Origin: a virus
Direction: 5' to 3' (one strand)
IMG/VR virus record: IMGVR_UViG_3300042549_010402
Span: 1-36,319 of that record
Length of the DNA stretch: 36,319 bases
Part shown: in pieces, positions 12,472 to 36,319 of the stretch
Layout: each line of letters starts with the position of its first letter
Position numbering within the stretch: the first letter of the stretch is position 1
Position numbers and translations under genes: made by a program
Notes under the pieces: generated by a model
Told to the model about the DNA's origin: nothing
Seen by the model: only the letters and a program-made list of their open reading frames with translations
Databases searched by the model: none

Positions 12472-13011
12472 TCAGAGCGGGGGCGCGTAGCTCGTGTGGA
12501 GCGTCGCGCGGGTCATGAGTGCGAAGGTCTGCTCGTAGATCACGCGGTCGTCGGCGACGATCTGCGACGGCTCGCCGTCGGGCGCGCAGTCGATCACCAC
12601 GGGGTCGAGGCCAGCCCACGAGGGCTGCCAGCCGATGCAGTCGCGCACGGCTTGGAAGTCCATCGCGGCGCGGTCTTCGATGGCGCCGAGAGTTCCTGCC
12701 CCCGAGGCCTCGCCCGTCGCGTCGATGCTCTCGTCGCCCTCTGCGGTGAGGAAGTACGCGATGCGCACCACGAGGGGGTAGGTGCTCAGGTCGCGGCCCG
12801 TAAGCGGGTTGCGGTAGCCCTCCGTCGGCGTGGCGCCGCCGATGACCACCTGCGCCGCGCGCTCGATCACGTTGGCCTCGACCGCCTCGAGCGGGAGACC
12901 TGCGTGCGCGCGATGGAAGCGCCCGGCAGCAAGCGTGTGGTCGGCGTCGGCGCCGTGCTCACCGAAGAGGATCGCGTAGGCCCGCGCGCGGTGTGCCTTC
13001 GTGAGCGCCAC
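12472..13011 (-). CDS. Tail terminator / tail completion protein (by position)
   Basis: This 179-aa protein starts at GTG 13011 and ends seven bases before the tube gene. It contains AYFLTAEGDESIDATGEASG and an alpha-beta pattern (ANVIERAAQVVIGG, LVVRIAYFLTAE, RVIYEQTFALMTRATLHTSY) compatible with the lambda gpU / gp17-type terminator fold that caps the tube. Size, charge and location between connector and tube support this. No diagnostic motif exists, so the call is mainly syntenic. Confidence 0.55.
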   Translation of the reverse strand: MALTKAHRARAYAILFGEHGADADHTLAAGRFHRAHAGLPLEAVEANVIERAAQVVIGGATPTEGYRNPLTGRDLSTYPLVVRIAYFLTAEGDESIDATGEASGAGTLGAIEDRAAMDFQAVRDCIGWQPSWAGLDPVVIDCAPDGEPSQIVADDRVIYEQTFALMTRATLHTSYAPPL

Positions 13012-13012
13012 G

Positions 13013-13873
13013 CTACGACCTCACCAGCGGGAACCCGCGCCACTGCCCCGCGCCCGTCGTCGCGGCGCCGGTCTGCGCGGCGTCGTACGCGAGGCCCGAC
13101 AGCGTGACGTTGAGCTCCTGCTCGTACCGCGCGCGCATGTCGTCGCGGTACGCCACGGCGTCGGCGCCCGCGGTCTCCGCGAGCAGGGCTCGCACGAGGT
13201 AGCCGTGCGCGCGCTTGAGGTTGATGGTCCCGGCGAAGCCACCGGGCACGCGGTCCTTCGTCGCCAGGTCGTCGCAGATCCGGTCCCACGCCTCGTCGAT
13301 GAGGTCGGGCAGCCACAGGTCGGCGGGCATCCGCTTCGCCACGGCCGCGTCGAGGGCGCGCACGTCGGCGAGGGTGAGTTCGCTGCGCGGCGTCCAGCGC
13401 ACCACGTCGAAGTCGATCGCGACCACGTCGAGCGTGTCGGGGTTCGTGAACTCCGCGCGGCACCCCCGCTGCGCCCTCGCGGTCGACGCCGTGGTGAGCG
13501 CGATCGACAGGAGCGTCGACACGAACGTGGCGCCCGAGGCCATCGCGCGGCGCAGCGGGGCCGCGAGCGTGACCACGAGTGAGGCAATGCCCGACACCGT
13601 GACCATCTCGCCGCCCGCCGACTCTGCACCGCCGACGAGGTAACGCTGCCCCACGGCGACGCCCGTCACGCTGGTGAGCGCGAGCGTGCGCGCGCCGGCC
13701 GAGGCCGCCGCCGTCGTCGTGGTGTTCGCCGCGCCGAGCGTCGGCGTCACGTCGGCCTGCAGCACATCACCACCCGGGCCGACGACCTGCACCGACGACG
13801 CGAGCGACGCCGAGGGGCGCGCCGCGAGCGTCGTGGTGAGCGTGGCCGTGCGGTTGAGCGTGGCGAAGCGCAT
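13013..13873 (-). CDS. Head-tail connector / adaptor candidate
   Basis: This 286-aa protein starts at ATG 13873, overlapping the upstream stop as TGATG. The N-terminal half is a beta module, including ARTLALTSVTGVAVGQRYLVGG, a small-barrel type also seen in the 848-aa tail protein. The C-terminal half is helical (LTLADVRALDAAVAKRMPADL, PDLIDEAWDRICDDLA, RAHGYLVRALLAETAGAD) and resembles the helical bundle of HK97 gp6-type adaptors that stack on the portal. Position between capsid and tail genes agrees. The fusion of a beta module to an adaptor is an inference. Confidence 0.55.
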   Translation of the reverse strand: MRFATLNRTATLTTTLAARPSASLASSVQVVGPGGDVLQADVTPTLGAANTTTTAAASAGARTLALTSVTGVAVGQRYLVGGAESAGGEMVTVSGIASLVVTLAAPLRRAMASGATFVSTLLSIALTTASTARAQRGCRAEFTNPDTLDVVAIDFDVVRWTPRSELTLADVRALDAAVAKRMPADLWLPDLIDEAWDRICDDLATKDRVPGGFAGTINLKRAHGYLVRALLAETAGADAVAYRDDMRARYEQELNVTLSGLAYDAAQTGAATTGAGQWRGFPLVRS

Positions 13874-29181: not shown

Positions 29182-29411
29182 TGACCCCGGCTGACTGGTA
29201 CGCTCTCGGCGTCGACGCCGCGCGGGAGGACATCACCGCCGCGCGCTACGAGCGCGACGCCGCCCTTGCCGACGCGCTCCGCTGCACGACGATCGACGAG
29301 GCCCGGCAACGCGTCAACGCGTGGCTGGTGCCCGCAGAGCCCGACGACATCGAGACCGCCGCGCAGGGCTACCTCGCGACGTGGCGTCGCAGCGAAGGGC
29401 GGGCAGACTGA
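29181..29411 (+). CDS. Small hypothetical protein
   Basis: This 76-aa protein has ATG 29181 overlapping the previous stop as TGATG. It is helical: MTPADWYALGVDAAREDITA, then RQRVNAWLVPAEPDDIETAA-QGYLATWRR. No family recognised; the TGATG junctions on both ends support it. Confidence 0.65.
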   Translation: MTPADWYALGVDAAREDITAARYERDAALADALRCTTIDEARQRVNAWLVPAEPDDIETAAQGYLATWRRSEGRAD

Positions 29412-29836
29412 TGGGCCGCTACATCACCGGCGCGCTCGTCGCGCACAGCGCGCCCGCGGCGCGGGTCGATGGACACTCGCGCGCGTATCTGGCCGCGACC
29501 CTCGCGACGGCGTTCTCCGATCACCCGTGCGAGCGTGGCGCGCGGCGCCTGCACGCGGTTGCCCTCACGACGCAGGGCACGCTCGCGCGGCTGCTGCGCC
29601 TCGACGAGCTCGACCGCCTGGTGACGCTCGCCGAGGCCATGCGCGACGCTGCACGCGAGGCTCCCGCCGAAGACCGCGTGCCGCTCATGGCGTGCGTCGT
29701 GCGCGACCTCCTCGACGGCGCCCCGGCGACGTGCGTTGACCTCGACCGCGCCGTGCGCGAGGCCGTGGTGAAGCGCTACAAGCCGTCGCCCGCGCACGTC
29801 GCATCGGCGGCCCGCATCGTCGAGGCGGTGCTCTGA
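29411..29836 (+). CDS. Hypothetical protein
   Basis: This 141-aa, largely helical protein starts in TGATG overlap at 29411. It includes GHSRAYLAATLATAFSDHPC, LLRLDELDRLVTLAEAMRDA and HVASAARIVEAVL. No membrane segment. The function is not recognisable. Confidence 0.65.
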   Translation: MGRYITGALVAHSAPAARVDGHSRAYLAATLATAFSDHPCERGARRLHAVALTTQGTLARLLRLDELDRLVTLAEAMRDAAREAPAEDRVPLMACVVRDLLDGAPATCVDLDRAVREAVVKRYKPSPAHVASAARIVEAVL

Positions 29837-31599: not shown

Positions 31600-32004
31600 G
31601 TGGGTGAGCCCGCTGCACAGCTGCTCACGGTCGCGGAGGTCGCGGGGCAACTCGCGGTCTCTCGCGATACCGTCGAGCGGCTGTGCAGGCAGGGGGCGCT
31701 CGTGGTGTACCGTGTCGGGCGCGCAGTGCGGGTCGCCCCTGCCAGCGTGGAGGCCTACCTCTCCCGATGCCGTCTGCACGTCCCGCAGTCCGTGCCTACC
31801 AGCGCGGCCCCCATCTCAAGCGCCGTGGTCGTGTCTGGTACGCGTACGGCGGACCCTTCGGGCGAGGGGGCCAATCGCTCCACACCGAAGACCACGCCGA
31901 GGCTGAGACGCGGTTCCGCGCCGAGCTCGCCCGCTCCGGCGAACGACGTGACACTCACGCGGGCGGAGCGCCTGCTCGCGAAGAAACTCTTGCAACCTGT
32001 CTGA
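31600..32004 (+). CDS. Excisionase-like helix-turn-helix protein
   Basis: This 134-aa protein has an N-terminal 60-residue domain that is a typical excisionase/MerR-type winged helix: LLTVAEVAGQLAVSRDTVER (8-27), LCRQGALVVYRVGRAVRV with the wing, then ASVEAYLSRCRLH. Such proteins bind the attachment site and steer the integrase toward excision. Residues 61-134 are Ser/Thr/Pro-rich with a basic end (RAERLLAKKLLQPV). That half overlaps the first 238 bases of the integrase gene in the -1 phase. GTG 31600 has no clean ribosome site. Confidence 0.7.
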   Translation: MGEPAAQLLTVAEVAGQLAVSRDTVERLCRQGALVVYRVGRAVRVAPASVEAYLSRCRLHVPQSVPTSAAPISSAVVVSGTRTADPSGEGANRSTPKTTPRLRRGSAPSSPAPANDVTLTRAERLLAKKLLQPV

Positions 32005-32930
32005 AGGCCTGGACGGGTGCCCCGCACGGGTACACCCGCCGCACGAAGGAGTCGCACGAGGAGCGCGTCACCTCCGTTGTGGCGTGGTTCACCCGCGCCG
32101 GCGCGACGCTCCCCTCCGAGGTCACCAACGAGCTCGTCGACCGCTGGGTGACGGCGCGCTCGGCGAAGGTCGCGAGGCGCACGATCAACCGCGACCTTCG
32201 CAGCCTACGCGTCTGCCTCCGGTGGTGCGCCGGTCGAGGCATGTGCGCCATGCCGCGCGCGCTCGAGCGCAAGGGGTTACGCGAGCCGACGCCAGAGGGT
32301 CACGCGCAACTGCCCGACCCCGACGAGGTGCGGCGCGTCATCGAGGCCATCCCCTCGCAGGGGTACCGCGACGCGCTGGTGATCTACTACGCGACGGGCT
32401 TGCGGTACGAGGAGCTCTACCGCCTGGCGGTCGGTGACGCGCACGACGGCCGCCTGTGGGTGCAGCCGCAGTCGGGCCCCGCTGACACCGCCGAGCCTTC
32501 GAAGGGCTACCGGGCGCGGTCGGTCCCGCTCGCTCCCGAAGTGATGCGCGTCGTGGTGCGCTTCCTCGCGTGGCGCGATCCCTCGAAGCGAGCGCTGGGC
32601 GCCCACAAGAACGCGCTGCACCGCGCGATCCGAGCTGCCTGCGAGGCGACGAAGGTGCCGCGCTTCGGGCTGCACGACCTTCGAAGGTGTTTCGCGACCG
32701 AGGCCGTGCGCCGCGGGGTGAAGCTCACGGTGGTGCGCGATTGGCTGGGGCACCGGCTCACCGGAACCACCGAGCGCTACGTGGGCAGGTATCGCAGCGA
32801 CGCCGACGTTGTAGCTCCTGTGCCCGCGATGCTCGCCGGGGGTGCTGATTCGCTGCTGAATCCTGGGGCGGAAATCAGCACCAAGGGGCGGCAACTCAGC
32901 ATGAAAGGCCACCGCAAGGGGCGGGGTTAA
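31767..32930 (+). CDS. int: Tyrosine integrase
   Basis: This 387-aa recombinase starts at ATG 31767. Residues 10-55 form an arm-binding-type N-terminal domain (RGPHLKRRGRVWYAYGGPFG, HTEDHAEAETRFRAEL). Residues 75-175 form a core-binding SAM-like domain. The catalytic domain has Arg213 (TGLRYEEL), Lys246, His303-Arg306 (GLHDLRR), His329 (WLGH) and the nucleophile Tyr338 (TERYVGRY). All active-site residues are present. The C-terminal coding region (32843-32901) contains arm-type repeats, and attP follows two bases after the stop, the usual layout for a phage that inserts into a tRNA gene. Confidence 0.93.
   Translation: MPSARPAVRAYQRGPHLKRRGRVWYAYGGPFGRGGQSLHTEDHAEAETRFRAELARSGERRDTHAGGAPAREETLATCLKAWTGAPHGYTRRTKESHEERVTSVVAWFTRAGATLPSEVTNELVDRWVTARSAKVARRTINRDLRSLRVCLRWCAGRGMCAMPRALERKGLREPTPEGHAQLPDPDEVRRVIEAIPSQGYRDALVIYYATGLRYEELYRLAVGDAHDGRLWVQPQSGPADTAEPSKGYRARSVPLAPEVMRVVVRFLAWRDPSKRALGAHKNALHRAIRAACEATKVPRFGLHDLRRCFATEAVRRGVKLTVVRDWLGHRLTGTTERYVGRYRSDADVVAPVPAMLAGGADSLLNPGAEISTKGRQLSMKGHRKGRG
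32843..32901. promoter_or_regulatory. Integrase arm-type sites, left arm of attP
   Basis: TGCTGA or its complement TCAGCA occurs at 32843, 32854, 32875 and 32896, inside the end of int. Matching copies lie on the other side of the core (33046-33080). Confidence 0.6.
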
Positions 32931-33234: not shown

Positions 33235-33399
33235 TCACCAGAGCATCGTGCGGGCTGCCCGCGGCGACACCGCGAGCGCCGCGAGCGCGCCCACGACGCA
33301 CACGCCGAGGGCGACGGTGCCGACGACGGCAACGCCACCGACGATGGCGAGGCCGACGCCGTAGCGGGCCCCCTCGACGATGCGTGCGACGCGGGTCAC
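33235..33399 (-). CDS. Small membrane protein at the end of the lysis cassette
   Basis: This 54-aa protein starts at GTG 33399, in GTGA overlap with the peptidoglycan-binding protein gene. Apart from a charged N-terminus (VTRVARIVEGARYG) it is almost entirely hydrophobic from residue 14 to 44 (VGLAIVGGVAVVGTVALGVC-VVGALAALAV) and ends with Arg-rich residues, giving one long or two short membrane helices. Its position directly after the endolysin candidate suggests a holin, antiholin or releasin-type role; this is inference. It is the last gene of the leftward operon. Confidence 0.65.
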   Translation of the reverse strand: MTRVARIVEGARYGVGLAIVGGVAVVGTVALGVCVVGALAALAVSPRAARTMLW

Positions 33400-34313
33400 G
33401 CCGCCCTCGTCAGCGCTGCCAGCGTCTGCGGGCCAACCGAGCCGTCGGCGTCGAGGCCGTGCGCCGCCTGCCACCGCTCGACGGCGTCGGGGCCACAGCC
33501 GCCCGTCGCCCGCAGCGTGCGCGCGAGCCGCAGCGCCTCGACGGCCTCGGGCGACCACGAGCCGGGGCACGCCCACAGCCGCGCCGTGGGTGCCTCGCAC
33601 AGCCCCCACACGAGGGCGCCGACGCTGTGGCCGTGGCCTTGGAGGTATGGCGACCACGCGGCCCCGTACGGCGCCGCCTTGGCGGGCGCGCGCCCCTCGG
33701 CGGCGAGCGCCTCCCACTGGCCCCGCGACCAGGCGACGCGCGCGGCGAGCTCGCGCTGGGAGACGGTGCGCCCGGCCTGCGCCGGGTAGTGCTGCGGCGC
33801 GTGGAGGTCGACGAGGGCGAGGTGCGCGCGCGGGATGCGGAAGCTCCTCACGCCGTCGTGCGAGGTCCAGCCGATCGCGAGCGACGGGGCGGTCGCGCGG
33901 ATCGCGTTGCAGAGCTCGACGGCGAGCGTGTCGAGGCGGCGGGCCTCGGCGGTGTCGGCGGGCGCCGAGGTCCAGTCGCCGACGACGGCCCCATCGCTCG
34001 CGCCCTCGCCGTTGAGCTCGAGCAGTTCCGCGCCCATGTCGCGTGCCACGAGGGCGACGCGCCGGATCTCGTTGAGGGCCGCCACGCGCCCGCGCGAGAG
34101 GTCGAGGCGGCTCAGGTAGTTGGCGGGCACCCCGAGCCACACGCGCGAGCATCCGAGGCGCCGCACGAGGGCCGCGCTGGTGACGTCGGTGGCGTCGGCC
34201 GCGGTGTGCAGCGTGACGTGGTCACAGGCGCGGATCACCTCGCGGCCCTGCGGCGTGTCGAGGTCGCGCGGGAGCGAGCCGTAGAAGGTCGCGCCGATGC
34301 CGGGGGCGATCAT
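33396..34313 (-). CDS. Endolysin candidate: TIM-barrel-like domain plus peptidoglycan-binding domain
   Basis: This 305-aa protein has about 240 N-terminal residues with eight alternating beta/alpha units like a glycosidase barrel: GIGATFYGS, HVTLHTAADA, RVWLGVPANY, AELLELNGEG, LAIGWTSHDG, LALVDLHAPQHY, PYGAAWSPYL and TARLWACPGSW. The acidic residues in ELLELNGEG and LVDLHAP are candidate catalytic groups. The C-terminal region about 272-305 (CGPDAVERWQAAHGLDADGS-VGPQTLAALTRA) is a short PG_binding_1-type module. No signal peptide, so release would depend on a holin. The activity (muramidase-like or other) is not decidable. Confidence 0.65.
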   Translation of the reverse strand: MIAPGIGATFYGSLPRDLDTPQGREVIRACDHVTLHTAADATDVTSAALVRRLGCSRVWLGVPANYLSRLDLSRGRVAALNEIRRVALVARDMGAELLELNGEGASDGAVVGDWTSAPADTAEARRLDTLAVELCNAIRATAPSLAIGWTSHDGVRSFRIPRAHLALVDLHAPQHYPAQAGRTVSQRELAARVAWSRGQWEALAAEGRAPAKAAPYGAAWSPYLQGHGHSVGALVWGLCEAPTARLWACPGSWSPEAVEALRLARTLRATGGCGPDAVERWQAAHGLDADGSVGPQTLAALTRAA

Positions 34314-34408
34314 CGAGGCGCCTCAGTGCCCCAGCCCACAGCGGTTGTCGTGGGCGACTCGGTGCCCCAGCCCATCGCGAGCAGGATCGAGAGAAACAAC
34401 GTGGTCAT
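34310..34408 (-). CDS. 32-residue peptide with duplicated GWGTE motif
   Basis: This tiny gene begins with MTTLFLSILLAMGWGTESPT, a short hydrophobic N-terminus, and repeats the motif as VGWGTEAPR. Both ends use ATGA overlaps with the adjacent peptidase and endolysin genes, which is strong evidence for translation despite the size. It could be a membrane-associated lysis regulator, a small-spanin-like peptide or a translational coupling leader. Function unknown. Confidence 0.5.
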   Translation of the reverse strand: MTTLFLSILLAMGWGTESPTTTAVGWGTEAPR

Positions 34409-35076
34409 GGCGTCTCCGGGAGGGTGTGAGGGATGCGCCCGCGGATCGCGGCGGGCATCTCGTAGGGGGTGGCGCGCAGCCACCGCGCGAGGCGCACGCA
34501 CACGTCGAGCGGGGGCACGAGGCCCGCGCGGATCGTGGCGAGGTGCGAGCGCATGACGCCGCGCGCGAGCTCGTGGTCGCCCGCGTCGAGGTGGTAGAGG
34601 TCGCCCAGCGTCGGCGCCTCGACGGGCAGCTCGCCCGTGAGCACGAAACGCAACCACAGCGCGCACGCGGTCGCGTCGGCCTCGGCGCGCGCACGGAGCT
34701 CGCCCGAGGTGTAGTCCACCACGGAGGCGACGCGCCCATCGGCCACCTGCCGCACGTGGCACCACTCGTGGGCGAGCGTGCAGGCCTCCGTGATCGGGTC
34801 GGCCACCGCGGCAGGCGAGAGCACGATCACGGGATCGAAAGGGGTCGCGAGCGTGACGCTGGTGCGCTCCGCGCGCTCGTCGAGGGCGTCGAGCACAGGG
34901 GCAGCAACGGCGCGCGCGGCAGCCGGGAGCAGGCCCGTGAGGGCGCGGTAGAGCCCCGCGACGGCAGCGAGCGCGGGGTCACCGGGGCGCAGCACCGTCG
35001 CGCGGCGCCACGCGAGCAGGTGCACGCGCAGCGCGTTGGTGAGCGCGGGCGTCCACGTGGTGGCCTGGTCGCTCAT
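34405..35076 (-). CDS. Putative zinc metallopeptidase (HExxH) in the lysis cassette
   Basis: This 223-aa protein starts at ATG 35076 in ATGA overlap. The motif ACTLAHEWCHVRQ gives HEWCH (103-107), the zinc-binding HExxH. Possible third ligands are Glu126 or Glu132 in YTSGELRARAEADATACALW. A helical N-terminus (about 10-70) and a C-terminal helical tail flank it. No signal peptide is visible. The motif plus a nearby Arg/Glu-rich helix recalls M4/M78-like peptidases of unknown substrate. In a lysis cassette it might cut peptidoglycan cross-links or process a protein. Confidence 0.65.
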   Translation of the reverse strand: MSDQATTWTPALTNALRVHLLAWRRATVLRPGDPALAAVAGLYRALTGLLPAAARAVAAPVLDALDERAERTSVTLATPFDPVIVLSPAAVADPITEACTLAHEWCHVRQVADGRVASVVDYTSGELRARAEADATACALWLRFVLTGELPVEAPTLGDLYHLDAGDHELARGVMRSHLATIRAGLVPPLDVCVRLARWLRATPYEMPAAIRGRIPHTLPETP

Positions 35077-35378
35077 GGCGCACCCCCATCGACGGGCGCG
35101 CAGTGCGCGACGCCGCCGGTCACGACGCACACGCCGCCGACGCTCGCGCAGGTGCGGTCGCCCGCGGGCTCCCAGCGCTGCGACGCGCTGCACACGTAGG
35201 GGCGATCGTCGCGGCATGACTGCGCCGCGGGCGTGCAGCCGCTCACGGGCGGCAGGCGCGGGTGACAGCCGTCGAGCGCGAGCCCGACGAGGCCGATCGC
35301 GAGGAGCACGGCGCCGACGCGCACGAGCGCGGTGCTGAGGCGGTCGAAGCCGTCGGGGTTGTGGTGGGGCTCGGTCAT
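35073..35378 (-). CDS. Membrane-anchored Cys-rich protein
   Basis: This 101-aa protein has a 20-residue N-terminus, one membrane helix (about 20-37, VRVGAVLLAIGLVGLALDGC) and an outside domain of 60 residues with seven Cys (38, 48, 55, 63, 77, 84, 93). LDGC at the end of the helix is lipobox-like, but Asp at -2 and the long N-terminus are atypical. A spanin-like or cell-envelope role is possible because it lies between the receiver-membrane fusion and the peptidase. ATG 35378; stop overlaps the peptidase ATG. Confidence 0.62.
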   Translation of the reverse strand: MTEPHHNPDGFDRLSTALVRVGAVLLAIGLVGLALDGCHPRLPPVSGCTPAAQSCRDDRPYVCSASQRWEPAGDRTCASVGGVCVVTGGVAHCAPVDGGAP

Positions 35379-36127
35379 GTGGTCACCGCGGCGATGAGCG
35401 CGCCGACGAGCGCGATGGCGATCGTCAGCAGCGCGAGGGGGGCGGCGGGCGGCGAGGGCGGGCGGTCGGAGGCGTCGGCGGGTGTCGTCGAGAGCAGCGT
35501 CGCGAGGGCGACGGCCGCGGTGGCAGCGCCGACGCTGCGCCCTCCGATCGACCGCAGGCCCGTCGAGACGCCGAGGATGGCGCCGATGCCCACGAGCGCG
35601 AGCTCGCCGCTGAGCTTGCCCGCCGCGCAGAGATACGCGAGGGCGATCACGCCCACGATGTCGCCGAGCCTGTCGATCACCTGCACCGCGACGGGCGGTG
35701 TCCCCGGGGCGCTCCGGGTGACGGGCGCCGGTGTCGAGGCCTGCGCGCGCACGCCGCGCTGCGTGGGCTCAGGCACCTCGACGCCGAGCATGTCGCCCAC
35801 GAGGTCGCGGAGCACCTGCGCGGCGACGGGTTTCGCCGCGAAGCTCCATCCGCGCGGCGACGCCACGCGCTCGAGCGACGCGGGGTCGCGCCCCGACACG
35901 AGGAGCACGGGCACCTCGCGCGAGGCCAGCGCGTCGTGCAGGGACGTCGCGTCGTCGCCGAGCACGAGGTCGAGCACGCAGCCCTGGTAGGTGTGCGCGG
36001 CGAGGGCCGCGAGCGCGTCGGCGACGCTGTGCGCGGTGTCAACGTCGGCGAGGTCTCGCAGGAGCGGCGCGAGCGTCGAGGTGATGGCGCGATCGTCGTC
36101 GACGATGAGCAGGCGCGGGCGCGTCAC
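35375..36127 (-). CDS. Response-regulator receiver domain fused to a multi-helix membrane domain
   Basis: This 250-aa protein has an N-terminal REC domain (4-115) with every signature residue: acidic Asp10/11/12 in LLIVDDDRAI, phospho-acceptor Asp53 in CVLDLVLG, Ser78 in VLLVSGRD and Lys99 in FAAKPV. A Pro/Ala linker (118-148) follows, then hydrophobic segments at about 155-172, 175-191, 198-214 and 229-249, three to four membrane helices with short polar loops. Such a size and topology resembles a holin. No DNA-binding output domain is present. GTG 36127 overlaps the stop of the 84-aa gene as GTGA. It heads the block with peptidase and endolysin candidates. I know of no described phage protein with this architecture, but I cannot search for one. 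Confidence 0.85.
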   Translation of the reverse strand: MTRPRLLIVDDDRAITSTLAPLLRDLADVDTAHSVADALAALAAHTYQGCVLDLVLGDDATSLHDALASREVPVLLVSGRDPASLERVASPRGWSFAAKPVAAQVLRDLVGDMLGVEVPEPTQRGVRAQASTPAPVTRSAPGTPPVAVQVIDRLGDIVGVIALAYLCAAGKLSGELALVGIGAILGVSTGLRSIGGRSVGAATAAVALATLLSTTPADASDRPPSPPAAPLALLTIAIALVGALIAAVTT

Positions 36128-36319
36128 GGCATCACGGCCCGCGCGATGCGCCGCGCGAGGGCCACGCGGAGATCGGCGTCGAGCGCTTCGAACGTGTCGG
36201 CGTCGCTCACGGGGTGCTTCTCGATGTCGTCGAGCGCGCCCGTGATGAGCGCCGCGCGCTGCTCAGGGGTGCGCGCGATCATCGGGACGGGGAGCGCGGC
36301 GTTCGTGGCGTTCGCGATC
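36124..36319 (-). CDS. Hypothetical 84-aa protein, 3' part (start lies at 186 on the circle)
   Basis: This is the continuation of the gene that starts at ATG 186. Bases 36193-36319 duplicate 1-127, and the last 22 codons before the stop (FEALDADLRVALARRIARAV then MP) are unique to this side. The stop overlaps the GTG of the receiver-membrane gene (GTGA). See the entry at 1-186 for description; function unknown. Confidence 0.78.
   Translation of the reverse strand, partial: IANATNAALPVPMIARTPEQRAALITGALDDIEKHPVSDADTFEALDADLRVALARRIARAVMP
36193..36319. repeat. Terminal direct repeat, right copy
   Basis: Exact copy of bases 1-127. Removing one copy gives a circle of 36,192 bp. Confidence 0.93.

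Follow-up and report, generated by a model that had tools for sequence, protein, structure and literature searches.

A receiver domain fused to membrane helices in the candidate lysis operon of a temperate phage, and receivers beside lysis genes of other phages

Genome and candidate lysis operon

The DNA analysed here (36,319 nucleotides, referred to as the window) is a complete phage genome with 72.7% G+C. Bases 1-127 are identical to bases 36193-36319, and by this 127-bp direct terminal repeat the window is closed circularly. Terminase, portal, capsid, DnaB helicase, repressor and integrase are all encoded. The phage is a tailed phage and, as shown by its integrase, which is encoded next to the lysis operon, a temperate one. 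On the circular map, the lysis operon comes after the long late genes and comprises seven minus-strand genes arranged head to tail (Table 1), with each overlap being exactly 4 bp (ATGA or GTGA). Its second gene encodes a receiver domain followed by predicted membrane helices (REC-TM), and lies at no real genome end because the terminal repeat closes the window.

Table 1. Positions of the genes and features described in the text. Positions without a contig handle refer to the window.
Feature	Position	Strand	Characteristics
Small upstream gene, at least 52 aa	36124..36282	-	4-bp GTGA overlap with REC-TM start
REC-TM protein, 250 aa	35375..36127	-	Pfam Response_reg, AlphaFold2, Foldseek, homologues
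101-aa protein	35073..35378	-	one N-terminal helix, Cys-rich rest; imperfect lipobox
Putative zinc metallopeptidase, 223 aa	34405..35076	-	HEWCH (HExxH); DUF6782 E 0.011; phrog_13834 E 1e-4
32-aa peptide	34310..34408	-	short hydrophobic N-terminus; putative coding gene
Endolysin candidate, 305 aa	33396..34313	-	C-terminal peptidoglycan-binding domain
54-aa one-helix membrane protein	33235..33399	-	52% identical to L002 counterpart
Integrase	31683..32930	+	phrog_1 E 1e-34; adjoins lysis operon
Rz/Rz1-like spanin pair, unannotated (V22 ORF31)	L049:11168-11800		one-helix coiled-coil protein with lipobox in other frame
Rz/Rz1-like spanin pair, unannotated (A5 gp12)	L050:4910-5540		one-helix coiled-coil protein with lipobox in other frame
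Coiled-coil genes upstream of stand-alone RECs	L046:3690-3995, L049:10370-10747, L050:4131-4499, L051:3627-3992, L053:3208-3504		

The small upstream gene gave no family match in Pfam or PHROGs, and may in fact begin on the far side of the terminal repeat. The 101-aa Cys-rich protein sits where relatives have lipoprotein (spanin-like) genes. A putative HEWCH metallopeptidase between a one-helix protein and an endolysin candidate is unusual for a lysis operon. The endolysin candidate was matched by PG_binding_1 (E 3e-6, above the cut-off) and, over the same stretch, by endolysin PHROGs (E 2.6e-5). The neighbourhood described in the earlier note (a peptidase-like gene, an endolysin candidate and small membrane proteins) was thereby recovered, and its genes are joined by the 4-bp overlaps. 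The lysis annotation of the operon stands on this one peptidoglycan-binding domain.

HATPase_c was absent from the complete window genome and from five related, possibly partial contigs; the window genome is without a cognate histidine kinase, and thus without a phage-encoded two-component system. For host assignment, the membrane profile was run against 195 genomes of one phylum, as were the portal and the L018 endolysin, and none of the genomes was identified as a host. The single match (L012) adjoins an ABC-transporter gene with internal stops and was rejected as chance.

The REC-TM protein and its relatives

The REC-TM reading frame has a GTG start and a third-position GC of 0.95. Residues 1-114 form the receiver (REC) and are followed by a Pro-rich linker (approximately 115-145) and four predicted helices. 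Pfam Response_reg (PF00072) was matched on residues 7-109 with E 5.8e-7 and 30.1 bits in the whole-protein search (cut-off 30.2), and with E 2.9e-9 and 32.3 bits, above the cut-off, in the genome-level search. Significant PDB sequence matches were all receivers or receiver-containing proteins (best 3lte, E 3.7e-6). In an AlphaFold2 model built on a six-row alignment, residues 1-114 adopted the five-fold beta/alpha REC with pLDDT of about 90 in most blocks and near 73 in one, and the linker was disordered (pLDDT<50 over residues 123-150). Foldseek searches of the PDB with this model returned receiver domains (E ~1e-6). The acidic pair D10 and D11, the phosphoacceptor D53, S78 and K99 are all present, so that profile match, fold and active-site residues of PF00072 were all found. 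The gene and the intact receiver claimed in the earlier note were thereby confirmed, and since homologues of the same architecture exist, REC-TM is not a chance reading frame. Residue 96 (K-3) is aromatic (F, W or Y) in the three REC-TM versions described below, as is the switch position of CheY-type RECs. The NAD-linked cREC domain of jumbo phages (PMC7824862) was rejected as the identity of the receiver, its match to REC-TM being only E 0.31.

In the membrane half, AlphaFold2 placed helices at residues 146-168, 174-188, 198-213 and 229-249 with low to moderate confidence. Hydropathy gave three weak stretches (KD 1.4-1.7) and a strong one at 231-249 (2.63), and the previously noted three to four membrane helices are therefore a fair description. 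The REC must be cytosolic, which this arrangement allows: the loop joining helices 2 and 3, which contains Arg, would then be cytosolic too, in keeping with the positive-inside rule. The holin reading of the earlier note stood in part. Membrane helices were found in a gene beside an endolysin candidate, with helices 1-3 being weak and the endolysin identified mainly by PG_binding_1, but no holin family in Pfam or PHROGs was matched. Weak matches to FUSC_2 and TgpA_N look like membrane composition and were not accepted as identity. With no known holin family matched by the membrane domains, the label "holin" is not established for REC-TM; the membrane part could be a holin, an antiholin or an anchored regulator, and the holin could instead be one of the other small membrane proteins that the operon encodes. 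The 54-aa one-helix protein, a second holin candidate, is no known holin either.

A REC-TM homologue with 52% identity (81% in the membrane core) was found on one IMG/VR contig (L002/L007). Searches that started from the 54-aa protein and its counterpart in L002 yielded four further contigs. Three of these encode a third REC-TM version (224 aa, Pfam E 2.3e-7) at that same place, flanked by a tail-fibre-like gene and a gene for a lipoprotein, and the fourth begins within the REC-TM gene. The conserved order in the relatives is tail, REC-TM, lipoprotein, endolysin and small TM protein. In every related contig covering that position REC-TM occupies the same place in the lysis block, and the order of receiver and membrane helices beside an endolysin gene, for which the earlier note had suggested looking, is kept. 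At the place of the window endolysin candidate the relatives have a different, 269-aa protein, which has no Pfam match and is named endolysin by position only. Exactly one REC was present in each contig holding the REC-TM region, and at least one additional small membrane protein in every fused cassette. The window and L002 proteins were unmatched among 50,697 phage records. Two further REC matches from genome contigs (L003, L005) were discarded as relatives, being ordinary bacterial REC proteins.

Pairwise REC identity among the three versions is 48-58% (z 28-37 relative to shuffled sequences), with D10, D11, D53, S78 and K99 invariant and K-3 always aromatic. At identical REC residues, 34-44% of codons differ, compared with 47-48% expected at saturation; since synonymous sites are thus near saturation, the receiver has long been kept by selection. 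In sequence, the third version's membrane domain shows no relationship to those of the other two (z -0.8, -0.5), though it again reads as about three helices, so that the membrane domains fall into two unrelated types. The window REC is closer to the third version (58% identity) than to L002 (48%) and its membrane part is shared with L002, which indicates that REC and membrane part have recombined. Between L007 and the L015 contig, a 5.6-kb stretch that begins just upstream of the endolysin is 98.9% identical, and the match stops short of REC-TM upstream. The block was therefore read as being swapped as a module, and its replacement is again a REC-membrane fusion. The fused versions suggest that REC and membrane parts belong together. 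A separate stretch of 434 bp (window 29392-29825, L007 ~12789-13220) is 93.5% identical between phages that are diverged elsewhere; it lies in a patchily conserved region of unknown function and was read as a recent exchange.

The conservation of the receiver bears on the possibility that the REC is a constitutive protein-interaction module, a scaffold or dimeriser for which phosphorylation is irrelevant. Many RECs act through protein contacts, and in the alignment the beta3-alpha3 region is shortened in the REC-TM family. The full conservation of acidic pair, phosphoacceptor Asp, Ser/Thr and Lys among the lysis-associated RECs compared, none of which a mere module would need, makes this unlikely.

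Receivers in lysis cassettes of other phages

For a wider search, a profile of the three RECs was used, which holds no lysis information. It retrieved an unrelated 53-kb IMG/VR contig with 64% G+C (L041), which encodes a 153-aa protein consisting of a REC (Pfam 1.2e-20) and one C-terminal helix with a basic tail. A lipoprotein gene overlaps this REC gene by four bases and is followed by a CHAP enzyme (3.7e-7). With the L041 protein as query, annotated phages yielded stand-alone RECs of cultured Alteromonas phages. The lead to phage V22 came from a literature search, not from the REC search.

In PB15, an XhlA-like coiled-coil membrane protein and an M15 peptidase flank the REC (8.4e-19) with four-base overlaps on each side, and a GTA_holin_3TM gene (3.1e-16) comes after the peptidase. 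XX1924 keeps this layout with another gene in place of the enzyme (holin E 2.3e-39). Both the myovirus V22 and the schitovirus A5 have their CheY-like gene in overlap with an Rz-like gene that contains an Rz1-like lipoprotein in another frame (lipobox sequences LLILTGC and LSLVSC); a two-helix protein follows the Rz-like gene and, in A5, the endolysin comes next. These neighbouring genes of V22 and A5 are probable spanins and holins. R9Y1 has a one-helix coiled-coil protein, REC, lysozyme and a 75-aa gene linked by four-base overlaps. In R8W and H4/4, the REC is located two genes past a class II holin, immediately after a one-helix protein. Every lysis-associated REC in the comparison has kept acidic pair, phosphoacceptor Asp, Ser/Thr and Lys. 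The Alteromonas RECs may have a common ancestor and need not each count as a separate origin.

Immediately before the stand-alone REC, each of five contigs (Table 1) encodes a coiled-coil protein of 98-125 aa, with one clear membrane helix in several cases; its ending is alike in R8W and R9Y1 (MLHLMNQR and MHLLNQR). This protein is a likely partner of the REC. In print, the REC genes of V22/A5 and R8W have been assigned to auxiliary metabolism or to host recognition (PMC7289586, PMC10579305, PMC8228385), and no papers linking them to lysis were found in the literature searched.

These cassettes were also considered with regard to an antiholin or lysis-inhibition sensor. By analogy, the REC or the helices of REC-TM would bind a separate holin, perhaps the 54-aa protein, and release it on a signal; the cytosolic antiholin RIII of T4 is known. 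This has some appeal, as every fused cassette holds a further small membrane protein and a separate recognised holin stands beside the REC in PB15, XX1924 and R8W. As the putative 54-aa partner is not itself a known holin, such a role is possible, though rather doubtful.

Alternatively, the membrane-anchored REC could be a decoy: late in infection it would draw phosphate away from a histidine kinase of the host, with no action on lysis proteins. In favour of such a sink, the REC has no DNA-binding output and the phage no kinase. Given that a decoy would be expected early, whereas the gene is coupled by 4 bp within the late lysis operon and the association recurs in unrelated phages, this was regarded as very unlikely. 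Likewise very unlikely, and slightly more so, is a REC-triggered membrane effector of prophage defence or superinfection exclusion that is merely parked beside lysis genes. Membrane effectors are common in defence, and a PADLOC search over the whole protein gave weak matches (best E 0.001). These span the REC region alone and identify no known anti-phage defence, the gene is embedded in the lysis operon and not with repressor or integrase, and the REC setting is like that in R8W, which is described with a rapid lytic cycle.

No lysis cassette is evident around the RECs of Bhz63, MW202604 and L039, which were not counted as lysis-associated. Because phage RECs of this kind exist, the association with lysis genes is frequent and not universal. 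In Stenotrophomonas phage vB_SmaS_Bhz63 (L043:4989-6535), a PhoP-like response regulator gene is coupled to a kinase-like gene of the PRK11100 superfamily, an apparent phage-carried two-component pair. Many REC matches came from "phage" records that lack annotation (Listeria LM, Acinetobacter MD-2021a, faecal contigs); the DNA looks bacterial there, and these matches were left uncounted.

Proposed role and comparison with known systems

That a phosphorylatable-looking REC is tied to the lysis module is strongly supported, because active site and position are conserved in the relatives and REC or REC-TM genes occur in unrelated lysis cassettes; several lineages support the REC as a recurrent component of such cassettes. 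Of the REC-membrane lysis protein put forward in the earlier note, this tie held, and the role of the membrane part as pore-former did not gain the same standing. We give about even chances to REC-TM being a membrane component of the lysis system with the cytosolic REC as its input.

Receivers can be phosphorylated by a histidine kinase or by acetyl phosphate, upon which their alpha4-beta5-alpha5 face changes, often with dimerisation. In REC-TM, D53 would receive its phosphate from a histidine kinase of the host or from a small phosphodonor, for instance acetyl phosphate; a donor from the host is pointed to because the searched contigs of the REC-TM family are without a kinase. As is usual for RECs, phosphorylation would alter the face used for dimerisation or partner binding, and the clustering tendency in the membrane of the attached helices, or of a neighbouring holin, would be raised or lowered. 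Host physiology would thereby shift the moment of lysis, with the REC acting as trigger or as brake. In the Alteromonas phages, the stand-alone REC would act likewise through the adjacent one-helix coiled-coil protein or a holin. Supporting this explanation, the phosphorylation residues are kept though synonymous sites are near saturation and the membrane domain has been exchanged. Counting against it are the lacking holin family match, the weak hydrophobicity of helices 1-3, the RECs outside lysis cassettes and the single peptidoglycan-binding domain behind the lysis annotation of the window operon. On this proposal, lysis would be gated by the host phosphorelay.

More generally, RECs might be an overlooked sensory module of lysis cassettes, in some lineages fused to a membrane domain that forms or regulates the pore ("REC-holin") and in others acting in trans via a neighbouring holin or one-helix coiled-coil protein, by which lysis timing is signal-gated across several lineages; judged from gene order and sequence, this is a tentative proposal, if a serious one. 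Equally tentative is its corollary that a lysis protein would read the phosphorelay or acetyl-phosphate state of the host directly and post-translationally. Such a module would exceed a novel variant of phage lysis control, and it is directly testable.

The components are known. REC fold and phosphorylation residues are common to REC-TM and the response regulators of two-component systems. Those regulators have DNA binding or an enzyme as output, whereas REC-TM has a membrane domain in a lysis operon and its cognate kinase is absent from the searched contigs. Lambda S, T4 T, RI and RIII and GTA_holin_3TM (PF11351) are, like REC-TM, small membrane proteins of few helices encoded beside endolysin and spanins, but no holin or antiholin family matches the membrane domain of REC-TM. 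To our knowledge, known holins carry no REC domain. The pinholin gp63 of phage N4 has a "Receiver domain", a holin regulatory segment that is like REC-TM in word only: it is a named stretch beside a membrane helix, not a REC fold (PMC12642591), and was rejected as a precedent since it shares the name and not the fold. A REC or CheY tied to holin, spanin or endolysin was not described in the searchable literature, nor did searchable papers report a receiver that belongs to a lysis cassette and is joined to a membrane domain.

Lysis timing is known to be set by holin accumulation, antiholins and superinfection signals. If the proposed role is true, a phosphorylatable receiver would connect host physiology with the lysis machinery directly and after translation. 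Receivers at this place in unrelated phages suggest that, for some phages, the time at which the cell bursts is open to host signalling. Vibriophage VP882 reportedly controls lysis by quorum sensing via a receptor-transcription factor (PMC10274711). A host signal is thereby used in the lysis decision of the phage, as in the role proposed for REC-TM, which differs in being a receiver domain within a lysis-operon protein. Alteromonas phages V22 (gp30), A5 (gp11), PB15, XX1924, R8W, H4/4 and R9Y1 have, like the window, a REC with intact active site in a lysis-gene operon past the tail fibres. Their RECs stand alone, whereas that of the window is fused to membrane helices, and in these cultured phages, whose REC genes were filed under auxiliary metabolism or host recognition, a lysis role of the REC is open to experimental test.
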